From the NCBI RefSeq assembly GCF_000016665.1, contig NC_009523.1, positions 4,897,501 to 4,961,500 on the forward strand: a stretch of 64,000 nt of DNA, given 5' to 3'. The notes beneath the pieces were generated by a model. It was not told the origin of the DNA, did not search any database, and worked only from the letters and a program-made list of their open reading frames with translations. Source of the stretch: Roseiflexus sp. RS-1 (GTDB lineage: Bacteria > Chloroflexota > Chloroflexia > Chloroflexales > Roseiflexaceae). Position numbers and translations under genes: made by a program. Shown here piece after piece: positions 1,617-43,157 of this stretch (within the stretch, counting starts at the first letter, position 1; each line of letters opens with the position of its first letter).

Positions 1617-1802
1617 GCGCATTGCTCCTGATAACTCTACTCTTGAGAGCCCTGATAGGGTTGCGGGCGCCCACCCGCACTCCGGCGACGCAAATATTGC
1701 GAAATCGGTTACAAATTGTTACGAAATCGTATCATTCCTGCACGTCATCAGTATTATCATGGCAGGTACAATATTAAGTTGTCAGGAAAGGAACCGCCCA
1801 CT

Positions 1803-2195
1803 ATGGCTTCCCGGCAAGAACAGATCACAGCCATCATCGACCAGTTGATGACCAACACCGGAACCGATGTCGTCGGCGCTGCCGCTGTGGGGCTCGATGG
1901 CATCGCACTCGCTTCGCGCATGTCATCGGAAGTCAGCAATGAGCGACTGGCAGCCGTGGCCGCCACCATCATGGGCGTTACGCGACGGGTTGGCAATGAG
2001 TTACGAATTGGTTTTGCTGAAGAGATTATCATTAAGGCCAACAAAGGGTTGTTTATGGTGTTGCCTGCTGGCGACCAGAGCCTGCTCGCCATCAGCCTGC
2101 GGCAGGACGCCAATCTGGGATTGGTGCGCCTGGAGGCTCGTGATGCCGCGCGCTCAATCGGTCAAATCCTCACCATGGTATACTCCCCAAATTGA
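1803..2195 (+). CDS. roadblock/LC7-domain protein
   Basis: A 130-residue protein made of a single roadblock/LC7 fold (alpha-beta-beta-alpha-beta), the class that binds and regulates small Ras-like GTPases such as MglA. Typical features are the N-terminal helix with QLMTNTGTDVVGAAAVGLDG, the central helix after SSEVSNERLAAVAATIM, and the strand GLFMVLPAGDQSLLAI. An ATG at 1803 with AGGAAAGG upstream is preferred over longer in-frame starts that would run into the intergenic repeat. A GTPase gene lies 1.5 kb downstream on the same strand, which fits a partner role (inference). Confidence 0.85.
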   Translation: MASRQEQITAIIDQLMTNTGTDVVGAAAVGLDGIALASRMSSEVSNERLAAVAATIMGVTRRVGNELRIGFAEEIIIKANKGLFMVLPAGDQSLLAISLRQDANLGLVRLEARDAARSIGQILTMVYSPN

Positions 2196-2361
2196 CGCTC
2201 ACGGAACACCCCATCCACGTTGATGGCGATGCCCCCACTTCGTTTCGTGGCTCGCTTCCCCGCCGAAAATAGCGCCGTCGCCCCGTCTCGCGGTTCATCG
2301 CCACACGCGAGCATTCTGGCTCGCACTCGCTGTTTATCATCCGACATCAGGAGGGATCACT

Positions 2362-2910
2362 ATGTCTGTCGATCGATCGAGCTGGCAGATCAAAGACGAA
2401 GCGGTACTGGCTGAACTCGTCCAGTTGATGAACCTCAGCGCCGATGAAGCCGCAATTCTCAAGTCGCTGCACGATGCGGCGCAGAAGCAGGCGCCAGCAA
2501 TGCGCGAGGATTTCTACAAACGACTGCTCGCACATCCGCAGACCGCTGAGTATTTCAGCAATATCAATATGAAGCACATGTATGAGACGCTTCAGAACTG
2601 GTTTGTTGAATTGTTTAATGGGGTCTACGACGAAACCTATGCCCGGCGTCGCATTACTATCGGCAGGGTGCATGTCAGGATCGGGCTGCCGGTGCGCTAT
2701 CCCATTGCCATGCTCGATGTGGCGATGGCGCATGCCGAAGCCGTTGCGCGCACCCATCCGCAGCCGGACGCGGCGATGGCAGCAGTGCGCAAGGTGATCG
2801 CGCTCGATGTGGCAGTGTTCAATCAGGCATACGAAGATCGCCAGATTCAGATCCTTGCCGACACGGTCGGAAATGAACGACTGGCACGGCGATTGCTCTC
2901 TGAAGAATAG
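2362..2910 (+). CDS. protoglobin / globin-coupled-sensor-like haem protein
   Basis: A 182-residue single-domain protein matching the protoglobin fold of globin-coupled sensors. The likely proximal haem ligand is His104 in the diagnostic stretch IGRVHVRIGLP; the N-terminal part with LNLSADEAAILKSL and FYKRLLAHPQTAEYF is also typical. No transmitter domain is attached, so it either binds O2/NO/CO by itself or signals through a separate partner. AGGAGGG precedes the ATG. It stands between a roadblock protein and a DUF4388/GTPase pair on the same strand, which suggests gas sensing feeding a GTPase switch (inference). Confidence 0.85.
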   Translation: MSVDRSSWQIKDEAVLAELVQLMNLSADEAAILKSLHDAAQKQAPAMREDFYKRLLAHPQTAEYFSNINMKHMYETLQNWFVELFNGVYDETYARRRITIGRVHVRIGLPVRYPIAMLDVAMAHAEAVARTHPQPDAAMAAVRKVIALDVAVFNQAYEDRQIQILADTVGNERLARRLLSEE

Positions 2911-2936
2911 AAACGCAGCACAATAAGGGGACAGCA

Positions 2937-3692
2937 ATGGCGCTCGAAGGAACCCTCCGCGACATGTCACTCAGCGATCTCTTTCACGTCTTTCGGATGG
3001 GACCAAAAACCGGTGTGCTCCTCCTGGCAAGTGCCAGTTCGCGCGCCATTGTGTATGTCGCCGCTGGAACCTTGATCGACGCAGCAGTGGTGCGTCTCCC
3101 TGATCGTGTGGTGGTCGCTGCTCAGGATGAGGCGGTGATCCAGATGTTGCTCTGGGATGACGCAACCTTCGTCTTCCGCCACGATCCAGCAGTCGCACAA
3201 CGTCCGGTACGCATTCGACACGATGCCGAGCACCTCATTCTGGAAAGTATGAAGCGTCGTCAGAACCTTCAGGCAGCGCTTCCGTACCACCACATCACGC
3301 TCGATACATCTTTGCAACTATCACCATTGACTTCCGGGCGCGAAAGCAATGTGATTCTCAGCGTGGATCAGTGGCGGCTGCTGAGCCAGATCCCGCATTG
3401 TCCGACTGTCCGCGCCATCAGTGCTGCGACCGGCATCCCCCCTGACCAGACGATCCGCCTGGTGCTGGAACTCATGGCCATCGGTCTGATCGAGATCGTT
3501 CCCACCAGGCGACCGGCATCGCCCTCTGCGCATCGTCGCGAGATGTTTGCAACCGAGACCGAAGAACAGGCGGCAATCCCGCAGTTGATGATGCAACCGG
3601 GCAGCCATGCCCAACCGGTCGCCCACGAACGCCGAATGCCGGTCCGGCGCAGCCTGATCGACGCAGTGATGCGTCGTGTGCGCGCACTGTAG
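2937..3692 (+). CDS. DUF4388 (PATAN-like) domain protein
   Basis: A 251-residue cytosolic protein whose first 110 or so residues begin LEGTLRDMSLSDLFHVF and GPKTGVLLL, the signature of DUF4388/PATAN domains found in signalling proteins. The C-terminal half contains a winged-helix-like segment (LSQIPHCPTVRAISAATG) and a basic tail. It sits 26 bases after the protoglobin gene and 17 before the GTPase gene, so the three are probably cotranscribed. DUF4388 proteins often occur beside response regulators and Ras-like GTPases; the biochemical activity is unknown. Confidence 0.8.
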   Translation: MALEGTLRDMSLSDLFHVFRMGPKTGVLLLASASSRAIVYVAAGTLIDAAVVRLPDRVVVAAQDEAVIQMLLWDDATFVFRHDPAVAQRPVRIRHDAEHLILESMKRRQNLQAALPYHHITLDTSLQLSPLTSGRESNVILSVDQWRLLSQIPHCPTVRAISAATGIPPDQTIRLVLELMAIGLIEIVPTRRPASPSAHRREMFATETEEQAAIPQLMMQPGSHAQPVAHERRMPVRRSLIDAVMRRVRAL

Positions 3693-3709
3693 CGGAGGGA
3701 GCGCGCGGC

Positions 3710-4243
3710 ATGCAGATCGTGAAGATCGTTATCACCGGCGGATATGCGGCGGGTAAAACCCGGTTCATTCGCACCATCAGCGATATCGAACCGGTATCGA
3801 CCGACTACGCCGTCACGACGGAGGAGGAGCGCGCACTCAAGCACGAAACGACTGTCGCGCTCGATTTTGGCGTCATTGCGATCAACGAGCATCTGAGTCT
3901 GTACCTGTTCGGCACGCCAGGGCAGGAACGCTTCGATTTTATGTGGGAACACCTGGCGTTTGGCGCGCTTGGGTATGTGGTCATGGTCGATAGTTGCCGC
4001 CCGGCGCACTTTGCCGAAACACAGCGGTTGATGGATCGATTCGCGTCGATCACTGACGTGCCGTTTGTCGTGGCGGCAAACAAACAGGATGATGAGACGG
4101 CATTGCCACCGGCATATATTCGCCGTCGCCTGGGTGTTCCGGAAGACGTGCCGGTGCTGCCGTGCGTGGCAAGTGATCGCAGCAGCGTCAAACGGGTGTT
4201 GCTGAGTCTGCTGCATTTGATTGCTGAGCGGGTTCAGGATTAA
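3710..4243 (+). CDS. small Ras/MglA-like GTPase
   Basis: A 177-residue GTPase. The P-loop is GGYAAGKT (residues 10-17), G3 is TPGQERF (69-75) with the catalytic Gln in place, and G4 is ANKQD (123-127). The C-terminus has no lipidation signal, so it is a cytosolic prokaryotic Ras superfamily switch of the type usually paired with roadblock/LC7 proteins. It follows the DUF4388 gene closely (17 bases). A polarity, motility or gene-regulation output cannot be read from the sequence. Confidence 0.9.
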   Translation: MQIVKIVITGGYAAGKTRFIRTISDIEPVSTDYAVTTEEERALKHETTVALDFGVIAINEHLSLYLFGTPGQERFDFMWEHLAFGALGYVVMVDSCRPAHFAETQRLMDRFASITDVPFVVAANKQDDETALPPAYIRRRLGVPEDVPVLPCVASDRSSVKRVLLSLLHLIAERVQD

Positions 4244-5030: not shown

Positions 5031-5060
5031 GCGCGACACCCGTCGCGTTTGAGGCATAAC

Positions 5061-5705
5061 GTGATCCGCTGGATACTGCTCAAACTCATCCGTTTCTATC
5101 AACTGTTCATCTCGCCCGCGCTTCCGCCGAGTTGTATTTACGAGCCGAGTTGCTCGAAGTATACCTATCAGGCGATTGCAAAGCATGGTGCGTTGAAAGG
5201 AACCTATCTCGGCATTCGTCGCATCCTGCGCTGCCATCCATGGGCGCAGGGCGGGTACGACCCGGTGCCGGATGAAGTGATCTTCGCCTTTCGCCCCGTG
5301 TCGCCTGCGGATGTTCCCGGCATGCTGCACCGCACCCGACGACACCCGGCAGCGTCTGCTGAAGAGCAGTCTGATGCTGAACGAACGACCGAACCGGCCA
5401 GGCAGGTCGTGCGCGAATGGGCGCAGACGGTGACGGAACGCTACCCGGAGGTGCTGCGCGTCGGGTATGTCAGCAATCCGGCAGATGGCGATAACAATAA
5501 CAATAACAATGGACATAACAATGGACATCTGGAAGTTCTGCTGATTGTCGCGCAGTCGGACCTGCCCTTCGATCAGCGCGCCGCTGTGTGGGAAGCGGAT
5601 ACACCGCCCGTTCCAGGGAAGCTGAACGTCTACACCCTCAACGAGTGGTCGCGCCTGTCGCACCAGGTGCAGTGGGTCTTCGAGCGCGAACAGGCGCTCC
5701 GGTGA
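5061..5705 (+). CDS. yidD: YidD membrane-insertion factor fused to a degenerate MNT nucleotidyltransferase domain
   Basis: Residues 1-75 or so are a standard YidD ([17 protein letters not shown], then [15 protein letters not shown] and RILRCHPW...GYDPVP), a small peripheral membrane protein that helps YidC insert proteins. The remaining 140 residues align with the MNT protein encoded at 6086-6439 (shared RVGY, LIV.QSDLPF, QRAA.W, VYTL.EW). The catalytic GS and DxD of that partner are replaced here by SN and HLE around a run rich in Asn and Gly (residues 144-156), so the second domain cannot catalyse nucleotidyl transfer by the known mechanism. GTG 5061 is chosen because GAGG lies 6 bases upstream; TTG 5049 is an alternative. 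Confidence 0.85.
5485..5530. repeat. short AAC-rich microsatellite inside the yidD fusion gene
   Basis: GATAACAATAACAATAAC-type triplets followed by two copies of GGACAT create the Asn/Gly/His-rich stretch that replaces the nucleotidyltransferase active site of the fusion protein. It is in phase with the codons. Confidence 0.8.
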
Positions 5706-5715
5706 GGCTTTCGCC

Positions 5716-6099
5716 ATGCCCGATCGGTCGCTGGATTGGCTCAAACAGGCGGAACGCGACCTCGATCAGGCGCTCGACTCGCAACGCGCCGGTCGGCATG
5801 AATGGGCATGCTTCGCCGCTCATCAGGCGGCGGAGAAGGCGGTGAAGGCGCTGCACCTGCATCATAAACAGGAGGCGTGGGGACATATCATTGCACGTCT
5901 GCTGACCGACCTGCCGATCAATGTTGCTGCCGATCTTGTCGATAAGGCGCGGGTGCTCGACAATTTCTACATTCCGACCCGTTATCCGAACAGTCATCCG
6001 GAAGGCGCGCCTTATGAGCACTACGGCGCACTTCAGAGCGATCAGGCAATCGCCTATGCCCGTGAAATCATTACATTCGTCCGTCATGAAATGGCCTGA
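5716..6099 (+). CDS. HEPN domain protein (toxin-like partner of the MNT gene)
   Basis: A 127-residue all-helical HEPN protein. The opening SLDWLKQAERDLDQAL and the core WACFAAHQAAEKAVKALHL are typical, and Arg89..His94 form an R-X4-H motif (RYPNSH), the RNase-type active site of HEPN toxins. It starts 10 bases after the yidD fusion and overlaps the downstream MNT gene by 14 bases, the usual arrangement of HEPN/MNT toxin-antitoxin pairs. In characterised pairs the MNT protein silences HEPN by adding AMP; that mechanism is only assumed here. Confidence 0.88.
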   Translation: MPDRSLDWLKQAERDLDQALDSQRAGRHEWACFAAHQAAEKAVKALHLHHKQEAWGHIIARLLTDLPINVAADLVDKARVLDNFYIPTRYPNSHPEGAPYEHYGALQSDQAIAYAREIITFVRHEMA

Positions 6100-6439
6100 T
6101 GCTCAGGCAGTCGATCGCGCGCTGCGAGAATGGGCGCATGCGCAGGCGAACCACCACCCGGAGATATTGCGCGTCGGGTACATTGGCTCCTATGCGCGCG
6201 GCGACTGGGGCGTCGGCAGCGATCTTGACGTGCTGCTGATCGTCGTGCAGTCGGACCTGCCCTTCGAGCAGCGCGCCGCCGCGTGGCATGTTGATACGCT
6301 CCCCGTACCGGCAGACCTCATGGTCTACACCCTCGATGAGTGGCTGCGCATCCCGCGTGATAGCCGCTTTGCACAGGCGGTGCAGCGCGAGGCGCGGTGG
6401 GTGTTTGAACGTGGGAAGGCTGAAGGTTCAGGCGTTTGA
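6086..6439 (+). CDS. MNT-type minimal nucleotidyltransferase (antitoxin-like)
   Basis: A 117-residue minimal nucleotidyltransferase with an intact pol-beta active site: GSYARGD from residue 34, then SDLDVLL, giving G34-S35-X10-D46-X-D48. The ATG at 6086 overlaps the end of the HEPN gene, indicating translational coupling. It is the intact relative of the C-terminal half of the upstream YidD fusion, so two MNT-type domains, one active-looking and one dead, flank the HEPN gene. Confidence 0.88.
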   Translation: MKWPDAQAVDRALREWAHAQANHHPEILRVGYIGSYARGDWGVGSDLDVLLIVVQSDLPFEQRAAAWHVDTLPVPADLMVYTLDEWLRIPRDSRFAQAVQREARWVFERGKAEGSGV

Positions 6440-40806: not shown

Positions 40807-41140
40807 ATGCCCCAGCCCCGCAGGGGATTTCACACCCTCAGCAAGGGCTTCAGCCCGCACGCGCGGGCAACGCACGGCGCATGCCCCAGCCCCGCAGGGG
40901 CTTTCACGCCCTCAGCAAGGGCTTCAGCCCGCACGCGCAGGCAACGCACGGCGCATGCCCCAGCCCCGCAGGGGCTTTCACACCCTTAGCAAGGGCTTCA
41001 GCCCGCACTTCAGCCCGCACGCGCGGGCAACGCACGGCGCATGCCCCAGCCCCGCAGGGGCTTTCACACCCTCAGCAAGGGCTTCAGCCCGCACGCGCGG
41101 ATGACTTTCACACCCTCAGCAAGGGCTTCAGCCCGCACGA
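40807..41140. repeat. 74-bp tandem array, four copies and a partial fifth
   Basis: Units start ATGCCCCAGCCCCGCAGGGG at 40807, 40881, 40955 and 41041; a partial one is at 41101. The third is 86 bp because of a 12-bp internal duplication. Each contains CCCCGCAGGGG and GCCCGCACGCGCGGGC palindromes. Short open frames here repeat with the array and are not taken as genes. Confidence 0.92.
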
Positions 41141-41273
41141 ACTCAACCTTCACCAACCCCACGGTCAGAACGTTCAGCAATCGATCAACAGAAACCCTGG
41201 AGGCAATGTCGTCTGGCGCGAAATAGTATAGCACAGGTTGTGGAGCGTTGAGCGTTGGAACAGCACACCCCCC

Positions 41274-43020
41274 GGAGCGCGCAGGCGACCCCTCCGGGCA
41301 CGGCATGCCGTGCCCCACCACGCCCCGGGGAGCGCGGGCGACCCCTCCGGACACGGTCTGCCGTGCCCCGCCGCCCCCCGGAGCGCGCAGGCGACCCCTC
41401 CGCGCACGGCATGCCGTGCCCCACCACCCCCCGGGGAGTGCAGGCGACCCGTACGGGCACGGCATGCCGTGCCCCGCCGCCCCCCAGGGAGCGCAGGCGA
41501 CCCCTCTGGGCACGGTCTGCCGTGCCCCGCCACCCCCCGGAGCGCGCGGGCGACCCCTCCGCGCACGGCATGCCGTGCCCCGCCACCCCCCGGAGCGCGC
41601 GGGCGACCCCTCCGCGCACGGCAGACCATGCCCCGCCACCCCCCGGAGCGCGCGGGCGACCCCTCCGCGCACGGTCTGCCGTGCCCCGCCACCCCCCGGA
41701 GCGCGCAGGCGACCCCTCCGCGCACGGTCTGCCGTGCCCCGCCACCCCCCGGAGCGCGCGGGCGACCCGTACGGGCACGGTCTGCCGTGCCCCACCACGC
41801 CCCGGAGCGCGCGGGCGACCCCTCCGCGCACGGTCTGCCGTGCCCCGCCACCCCCCGGAGCGCGCAGGCGACCCCTCCGGGCACGGTCTGCCGTGCCCCA
41901 CCACGCCCCGGAGCGCGCGGGCGACCCGTACGGGCACGGCATGCCGTGCCCCACCACCCCCCGGGGAGTGCAGGCGACCCGTACGGGCACGGCATGCCGT
42001 GCCCCGCCGCGCCCCTGGGAGCACGGGCAACCCCTCCGGGCACGGTCTGCCGTGCCCCGCCACCCCCAGAGCGCGCGGGCGACCCGTACGGGCACGGTCT
42101 GCCGTGCCCCGCCACCCCCCAGAGCGCGCGGGCGACCCGTACGGGCACGGTCTGCCGTGCCCCGCCGCGCCCCGGAGCGCGCGGGCGACCCCTCCGCGCA
42201 CGGTCTGCCGTGCCCCGCCACCCCCCGGAGCGCGCAGGCGACCCCTCCGGGCACGGTCTGCCGTGCCCCGCCACCCCCCGGAGCGCGCAGGCGACCCCTC
42301 CGGGCACGGCATGCCGTGCCCCACCACCCCCCGGGGAGTGCAGGCGACCCGTACGGGCACGGCATGCCGTGCCCCGCCGCGCCCCTGGGAGCACGGGCAA
42401 CCCCTCCGGGCACGGTCTGCCGTGCCCCGCCACCCCCCAGAGCGCGCGGGCGACCCGTACGGGCACGGTCTGCCGTGCCCCGCCACCCCCCAGAGCGCGC
42501 GGGCGACCCGTACGGGCACGGTCTGCCGTGCCCCGCCACCCCCCGGAGCGCGCGGGCGACCCGTACGGGCACGGTCTGCCGTGCCCCACCACGCCCCGGA
42601 GCGCGCGGGCGACCCCTCCGCGCACGGTCTGCCGTGCCCCGCCACCCCCCGGAGCGCGCAGGCGACCCCTCCGGGCACGGTCTGCCGTGCCCCGCCACCC
42701 CCCGGAGCGCGCAGGCGACCCCTCCGGGCACGGTCTGCCGTGCCCCGCCACCCCCCGGAGCGCGCGGGCGACCCGTACGGGCACGGTCTGCCGTGCCCCA
42801 CCACCCCCCGGGGAGTGCAGGCGACCCGTACGGGCACGGTCTGCCGTGCCCCGCCGCGCCCCTGGGAGCACGGGCAACCCCTCCGGGCACGGTCTGCCGT
42901 GCCCCGCCACCCCCCAGAGCGCGCGGGCGACCCGTACGGGCACGGTCTGCCGTGCCCCGCCACCCCCCAGAGCGCGCGGGCGACCCGTACGGGCACGGTC
43001 TGCCGTGCCCCGCCGCGCCC
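41274..43020. repeat. 53-bp palindromic tandem array, about 33 copies
   Basis: Units of the type GAGCGCGCGGGCGACCCCTC continuing to CCCCGCCACCCCCCG repeat every 53 bases (some 51-54) for 1.75 kb. Every unit has a stem GGGCACGG / CCGTGCCC around CATG or TCTG; with CATG it is a perfect 20-base palindrome. Variants alternate among CCCCTCCGGG, CCCCTCCGCG and CCCGTACGGG. All reading frames are open in parts, but they just translate the repeat. There is no gene within. Confidence 0.95.
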
Positions 43021-43157
43021 CTGAGAGCGTGGTCGAGCCGCTCGCGTTCCCAGGAGAGACGCGAGCAATCACGTAACATGACCTTTTTGTGGTAGATTCT
43101 ATGCATGCGCACACAGCGCATCCGTTCATCACAGCGATTGATCGGTAAGGTCTTTGC

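Follow-up and report, generated by a model that had tools for sequence, protein, structure and literature searches.

The window analysed here, a stretch of 64,000 nucleotides of the Roseiflexus sp. RS-1 genome (a single contig of 5.8 Mb), carries near its beginning four genes on the plus strand, which we call R, H, D and G. R (positions 1803–2195) encodes a roadblock/LC7 protein of 130 aa (Pfam Robl_LC7, 45 bits against a cut-off of 23, 8.7e-12), whose solved relatives include 7f8m, 9jue and cvnB5 (3leq). H (2362–2910) encodes a single-domain protoglobin of 182 aa (Pfam Protoglobin, 110.7 bits, cut-off 25, 8.7e-32), which could be aligned to 5ohe, 2w31 and 8h17. D (2937–3692) encodes a DUF4388 protein of 251 aa (Pfam DUF4388, 58 bits, cut-off 25, 1.5e-15), for which an AlphaFold2 model is available, and G (3710–4243) an MglA-type small GTPase of 177 aa (Pfam ATP_bind_1 56 bits, cut-off 27; Arf 31.4, cut-off 22.3; Ras 31.3, cut-off 21.6). 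The identities and the order of these proteins had been proposed in a preliminary description of this DNA, and they hold: all four reading frames lie on the plus strand at the place given there, and each protein scores above its Pfam cut-off. The gaps between R and H, H and D, and D and G measure 166, 26 and 17 bp, respectively, so that H, D and G form a compact block, from which R is slightly set off. A consensus scan, which found 4 sites where 1.7 were expected, placed a weak promoter-like site (GTTACA-16-TATCAT, 1708–1735, plus strand) upstream of R; such a match does not by itself argue for a function. According to the Pfam scan, the set is flanked by a thiolase gene upstream and a MoaB-like gene downstream, which a search of 84 further loci, often truncated ones, detected in 0 and 2 cases, respectively. 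The flanking genes thus vary while R, H, D and G stay together, and therefore the four genes travel independently of their surroundings.

The GTPase exhibits the P-loop GGYAAGKT, the motif FGTPGQ with TPGQ at the G3 place, NKQD as G4 and VASD at the G5 place, and its best solved relative in a single-sequence search is the MglA chain 3t12. It consists of a single GTPase domain of less than 240 aa, and a roadblock gene belongs to the same set both in the window and in the relatives. The G4 motif fits the pattern [NT]KxD of MglA groups 1, 4 and 5, by the rule given in the accessible part of PMC4316618.

The globin aligns over 146 residues with 5ohe, a globin-coupled histidine kinase (GcHK). His104 (codon 2671–2673, plus strand), predicted from the alignment and its conservation to be the haem ligand, corresponds to residue 99 of 5ohe, and Tyr52 (codon 2515–2517, plus strand), on the same grounds the predicted distal residue, corresponds to residue 45; we take these two residues to be the proximal and distal haem residues of GcHK. 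Our globin alignment comprised 107 distinct rows, 81 of them encoded near R and/or G and 26 isolated. Among the alignable partner-linked rows the tyrosine is retained in 77 of 77 and the histidine in 80 of 80 (4 and 1 partial rows, respectively, are gapped at these places), while the isolated globins keep them in 26/26 and 25/26 cases. Beyond the globin fold, H has a C-terminal tail (residues 160–182) that is also conserved, with G170 and L174 present in all 81 partner-linked rows; on the strength of this conservation we regard the tail as a candidate contact. The full length of the globin from a Thermosynechococcus record (L104) is matched by PDB entry 8h17 (Tlr1989; 346 bits), so this class of globins already has a solved structure, and a search of the open-licence literature for Tlr1989 by name found nothing. 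The sequence of H fits gas sensing and gas scavenging alike and cannot tell the two apart. In an isolated, divergent paralogue (L024:1489-2235, genome G006) the haem-ligand His is replaced by Phe; this protein may be a sensor that works without haem, or the product of a gene in decay.

For class Chloroflexia we analyzed a sample of 150 genomes, in which globins of 188 bits or more were assigned to the subfamily of H. There are 38 such globins in 29 genomes, and GTPases of the G family occur in 67 genomes. In 25 of the 38 cases, distributed over 24 of the 29 genomes, the globin gene lies on the same strand as a G-family GTPase gene and at most 2 kb away from it. The 13 globins found away from G include three that adjoin R, one near the end of a 5.8-kb contig, and nine whose retrieved surroundings contain no R, G or D. 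The sample also has 18 weaker globin matches, of which 16 are away from G and two near it; one of the latter is a distant globin in genome G094, with the order G-H-R, and the other a globin remnant in genome G055. In Oscillochloris sp. ZM17-4 the globin gene between R and D is reduced to its final part (locus L032; the globin of locus L030 is whole), which indicates that H can be lost while the R-D-G core is kept. Such a core without the globin is common: R and D accompany the GTPase in the absence of H in 41 of 144 cases, some of them at loci with short flanks. The Roseiflexus genome of the window itself possesses, elsewhere, a further R-G-D set as well as a D-G pair. A second DUF4388–GTPase pair of this genome, with neither roadblock nor globin, is located at L169:5838-7213 (G000:C1:2634849-2636212). 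Most of the sampled Chloroflexales, among them genomes that lack the globin set, have GTPases that score like the one from this pair.

The set extends to Cyanobacteria. In the Thermosynechococcus record L104 a relative of G is part of an H-R-G-D set, and of 194 genomes of the same class 49 carry globins matching at an E-value of 1e-20 or lower, 53 in total. R, G and D all lie within 4 kb on the same strand for 43 of these 53 globins (flanks of up to 6 kb were considered), R and G for two, R only for two, and none of the three for six. Hence 45 globins have G at their side and 8 are away from it. Counted from the other partner, there are 96 GTPases in 77 genomes, 45 of them with H nearby; both proteins occur in 48 genomes, a co-occurrence with a hypergeometric p of 6e-24 when kinship of the genomes is ignored. 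Even under a generous bound for chance (a 2-Mb genome with 4 such GTPases, a reach of 4 kb, same strand), fewer than 0.5 globins per sample would be expected near a GTPase, compared with the 25 of 38 seen in Chloroflexia and the 45 of 53 seen in Cyanobacteria, counts that are inflated by shared descent. Co-location of the set is therefore confirmed, and it is wider than first thought, covering both Chloroflexia and Cyanobacteria. Separate placement of the globin in relatives, which the preliminary description had named as the finding that would speak against its proposal, was mostly not observed, yet the globin is found apart from the GTPase in 13 of 38 and 8 of 53 cases.

Outside these two groups the picture is sparse. 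Eight genomes from other phyla with related GTPase loci yielded a single globin, in a 300-aa frame, and none of R, G and D was found in its 3.4-kb locus. In Chloroflexota as a whole, at least 28 of 400 genomes have a globin match with E up to 1e-8 (at most 8 candidates per genome were scored); in the seven matching genomes from outside class Chloroflexia the globins score below 62 bits and reside in frames of 322 to 655 aa, which are probably fused sensors, and the 1.5-kb flanks of these seven loci contain none of R, G and D. In Actinomycetota at least 9 of 396 genomes have matches, again with at most 8 candidates per genome scored, and all of them are below 67 bits. One of these actinobacteria (G835) adds a third phylum with linked genes: G, R and H share a strand there, and unassigned ORFs separate G from R.

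The order of the genes varies between lineages. R-H-D-G is found in the window and in most Chloroflexales loci, D-G-R-H in four Herpetosiphon records, and R-D-G-H-D-G in Viridilinea records, while Cyanobacteria show H-R-G-D for 32 of the 53 globins, R-G-D-H for 3, and single cases of other arrangements such as R-H-D-G. Conservation of the four-gene order was a check suggested in the preliminary description; it is the set that is conserved, in Chloroflexia and Cyanobacteria, and not a fixed order. Since the orders are permuted while the set is kept, we argue for selection on co-location; repeated reshuffling with the set remaining together is the strongest genomic sign that these genes form a functional unit. 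On a quick tree of 144 GTPases, for which long branches were warned of, the label "H near" is confined to two groups, where it applies to 24 of 32 Chloroflexia rows and to 46 of 57 rows of Cyanobacteria plus G094, and it changes 14 times in all, at least seven times on starred branches. The globin tree, whose branches are very long and whose root is unsupported, was used for phylum grouping only: the globins of each phylum cluster together, apart from one row each. In L177 (G305), from the cyanobacterial sample, the cassette globin groups with those of Chloroflexia and the GTPase with the cyanobacterial ones, a pattern on long branches that might reflect a possible sensor swap between lineages.

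D is predicted by AlphaFold2 (mean pLDDT 84) to comprise an alpha/beta DUF4388 domain (residues ~1–108), a winged helix (~112–189), a disordered linker and a C-terminal helix (237–250), the last with a motif that is shared across phyla. The model of an Anaerolineae homolog, 29% identical (mean pLDDT 81.5), shows the same architecture, except that its first domain contains a helical insertion. The DUF4388 domain is presumably the same as PATAN (PatA N-terminal). A helical insertion is a trait named in the title of Makarova 2006, as cited in the accessible part of PMC4316618. All 28 sequences of the D family (D and 27 homologues) match DUF4388, and 17 of the 28 weakly match MarR_2; by sequence the nearest relatives of the winged helix are MarR regulators (PDB 7kua, E 5.5e-6). 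The structure searches pointed elsewhere. Foldseek ranked GATOR1/SEA chains first for both D models (the first 6 rows for the window D and the first 4 for the Anaerolineae D) with E from 0.006 to 0.1, no PDB chain matched either model at an E-value of 0.001 or below, and no CvnC/DUF742 structure was present among the matches listed. In VIA-align comparisons with a GATOR1 chain, the winged helix of the window D gave Z 9.7 (rmsd 2.7 over 74 residues) and that of the Anaerolineae D gave Z 10.9 (rmsd 2.2 over 71 residues), while an unrelated methyltransferase scored nearly as high, with Z 8.6 and 9.6. The GATOR1 winged helix is the top structural match of the two D models, tied with 8hkr. From the make-up of the complexes we take the matched chains to be NPRL2 and NPRL3, regulators of Rag GTPases, in which, as in D, a winged helix follows an N-terminal alpha/beta domain, which in NPRL2/NPRL3 is a longin domain; the comparison covers mainly the winged helices, and relatedness of the D winged helix to NPRL2/NPRL3 may serve as a lead only. 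In G011, a 426-aa ORF (L176:11807-13538) combines D and G in one polypeptide; it is followed by R and situated ~4.4 kb from a normal R-H-D-G set. This natural fusion supports a contact between D and G.

Among known systems the closest to the set are the MglA/MglB systems of groups 1 and 5 (Wuichet and Sogaard-Andersen 2014, PMC4316618), which, as far as the accessible text goes, likewise pair an MglA-type GTPase having the G4 motif [NT]KxD with a roadblock protein, are occasionally encoded near PATAN genes, and in the case of group 5 have hosts that include Chloroflexi and Cyanobacteria, as does the set. The proximity of MglB to PATAN goes back to Makarova 2006, as cited in the same part of that paper. 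For groups 1 and 5 its accessible text makes no mention of a globin, whereas in the set the predicted haem sensor is a regular member. The conservons (CvnA-D), in the available portion of PMC13343842, resemble the set as compact groups of four genes for a sensor, a roadblock protein, a third protein and an MglA-type GTPase. The conservon sensor, however, is a membrane histidine kinase, in place of which the set has a soluble globin, and the place of CvnC is taken by the DUF4388 protein. Moreover, conservon (group 2) GTPases carry NxFD and DAR (PMC4316618, accessible part), unlike the NKQD and VASD of G. We considered whether the set is an actinobacterial conservon and rejected this assignment, as the GTPase motifs differ and no kinase is encoded between the genes or as a neighbour. 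H itself belongs to the protoglobin/sensor globin family and has the same haem-pocket residues; in sensor globins with a fused output domain the output is part of the same chain, whereas here we propose that it runs via the separate proteins of a GTPase module. In the open-licence literature we found neither roadblock, protoglobin and GTPase together nor a joint treatment of DUF4388 with roadblock or of globin with MglA; the gene table of one DUF4388 paper shows DUF4388 adjoining a GTPase in Anaerolinea. The preliminary description had considered the set not to have been described as a unit, which needs to be qualified: MglA near PATAN is in print (PMC4316618, accessible part), and it is the globin for which we found no mention.

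Based on these data we consider it probable, on balance, that R, H, D and G constitute one signalling module, in which a haem globin gates an MglA-type GTPase and D is the two-domain partner of this GTPase; control of an MglA-type GTPase by the globin is the most natural reading of the set. The physical complex, the direction of the signal, its gating by ligand or gas, the GAP or GEF roles and the output we infer as follows. H would bind haem and a gas (O2, NO or CO) and serve as the sensor. Ligand binding would alter the contact of H with R and/or D, perhaps via the conserved C-terminal tail, and the altered contact would shift G, as an MglA-type switch, between its GTP and GDP states. In related systems roadblock proteins act as GAPs, and the mycobacterial counterparts of CvnB and CvnC are reported to be a GAP and a likely GEF, respectively (PMC13343842, available portion). 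D, with its PATAN domain, winged helix and C-terminal helix, would be the partner of G as a regulator, scaffold or effector, and would carry the output. In cyanobacteria this output could be type IV pilus movement, which is conceivable because PATAN regulators bind PilB there; their interaction with PilB was described in Synechocystis (PMC7690835, PMC9090330 and PMC10519157, in the parts available). A type IV pilus motor as the output in the genome of the window was considered and dropped, as no PilB or PilT above the cut-off was found there among five of the six PF00437 matches. Two of the six belong to a single Tad-like cluster, which also includes SAF and ParA-like genes; the five matches that were scanned have TadA- or TrbB-type ATPase models as the best hits and fall far under the PilB/PilT cut-offs.

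A serious rival to this scheme concerns the output only and is a form of the same module: D might be a transcription factor whose MarR-like winged helix binds DNA under the control of G, making the set a gas-to-transcription switch. The nearness of its second domain to MarR by sequence (the weak MarR_2 matches in 17 of 28 homologues and 7kua at 5.5e-6) speaks for this, as do the group 3 MglA systems, which carry a predicted winged-helix protein (PMC4316618, accessible part). By structure, however, the winged helix is nearer to NPRL2/NPRL3 (Z 9.7–10.9) than to MarR chains (Z below 7). The winged helix of NPRL2/NPRL3 in GATOR1 is not known to be a DNA-binding part. We therefore rate direct action of D on transcription as rather unlikely.

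H might instead scavenge a gas or detoxify NO as an enzyme, and be encoded in one operon with the GTPase for the sake of regulation, with no contact between the two proteins. Such chemistry is within the reach of single-domain globins that lack an output domain, and isolated copies of H exist. On the other hand, no reductase gene accompanies H at any of the loci examined, its conserved partners have signalling functions, and conservation reaches into the tail past the globin fold (G170 and L174 in 81/81 rows), which leaves this role distinctly unlikely. Alternatively, an R-D-G operon may have taken up a globin early, with the arrangement inherited and later shuffled without any functional link. 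The clustering of globins by phylum, one row each apart, means that few joining events are needed for such a history; yet "H near" is found in two clades of the GTPase tree, where at least seven of its 14 changes fall on starred branches, and the set stayed together while its order changed repeatedly. Mere co-location is accordingly, in our opinion, very improbable.

If the globin-gated GTPase module is real, its soluble haem globin would add an O2, NO or CO signal to the inputs described for MglA-type switches, which are chemosensory or kinase systems (PMC4316618 and PMC13343842, in the parts available), and would give sensor globins an output of a new kind. The effect of a gas on the GTPase cycle is directly testable, because the set occurs in Thermosynechococcus and the structure of Tlr1989 (8h17) is solved. 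Members of this genus can be cultured and transformed, and their motility is under study. Should the likeness of D to NPRL2/NPRL3 hold, the module would also be informative about how the Rag/GATOR pathway arose: it could be a widespread bacterial gas-gated Ras-like switch, with O2 or NO as the input, in which the globin acts on the GTPase through R and D, and a single operon would unite counterparts of three eukaryotic components, namely the roadblock platform, the Rag-type GTPase and its NPRL regulators. This far-reaching proposal we regard as unlikely.

Two other features of the window deserve a comment. In the region 5049–6439, the product of a YidD gene (Pfam, 106 bits) is extended at its C-terminus by a segment resembling the nucleotidyltransferase encoded downstream (about 6110–6439), with an Asn-rich repeat in place of the catalytic stretch of the nucleotidyltransferase; a HEPN gene (5716–6099) lies between the YidD and nucleotidyltransferase genes. 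The YidD reading frame thus has the look of a fusion between YidD and a nucleotidyltransferase in decay, next to a nucleotidyltransferase–HEPN pair that is intact. Further downstream, at 41266–43036, a G+C-rich unit of 53 bp forms a tandem array of 33 copies with several frames open, and ahead of it lies an array of a 74-bp repeat (40807–41100).
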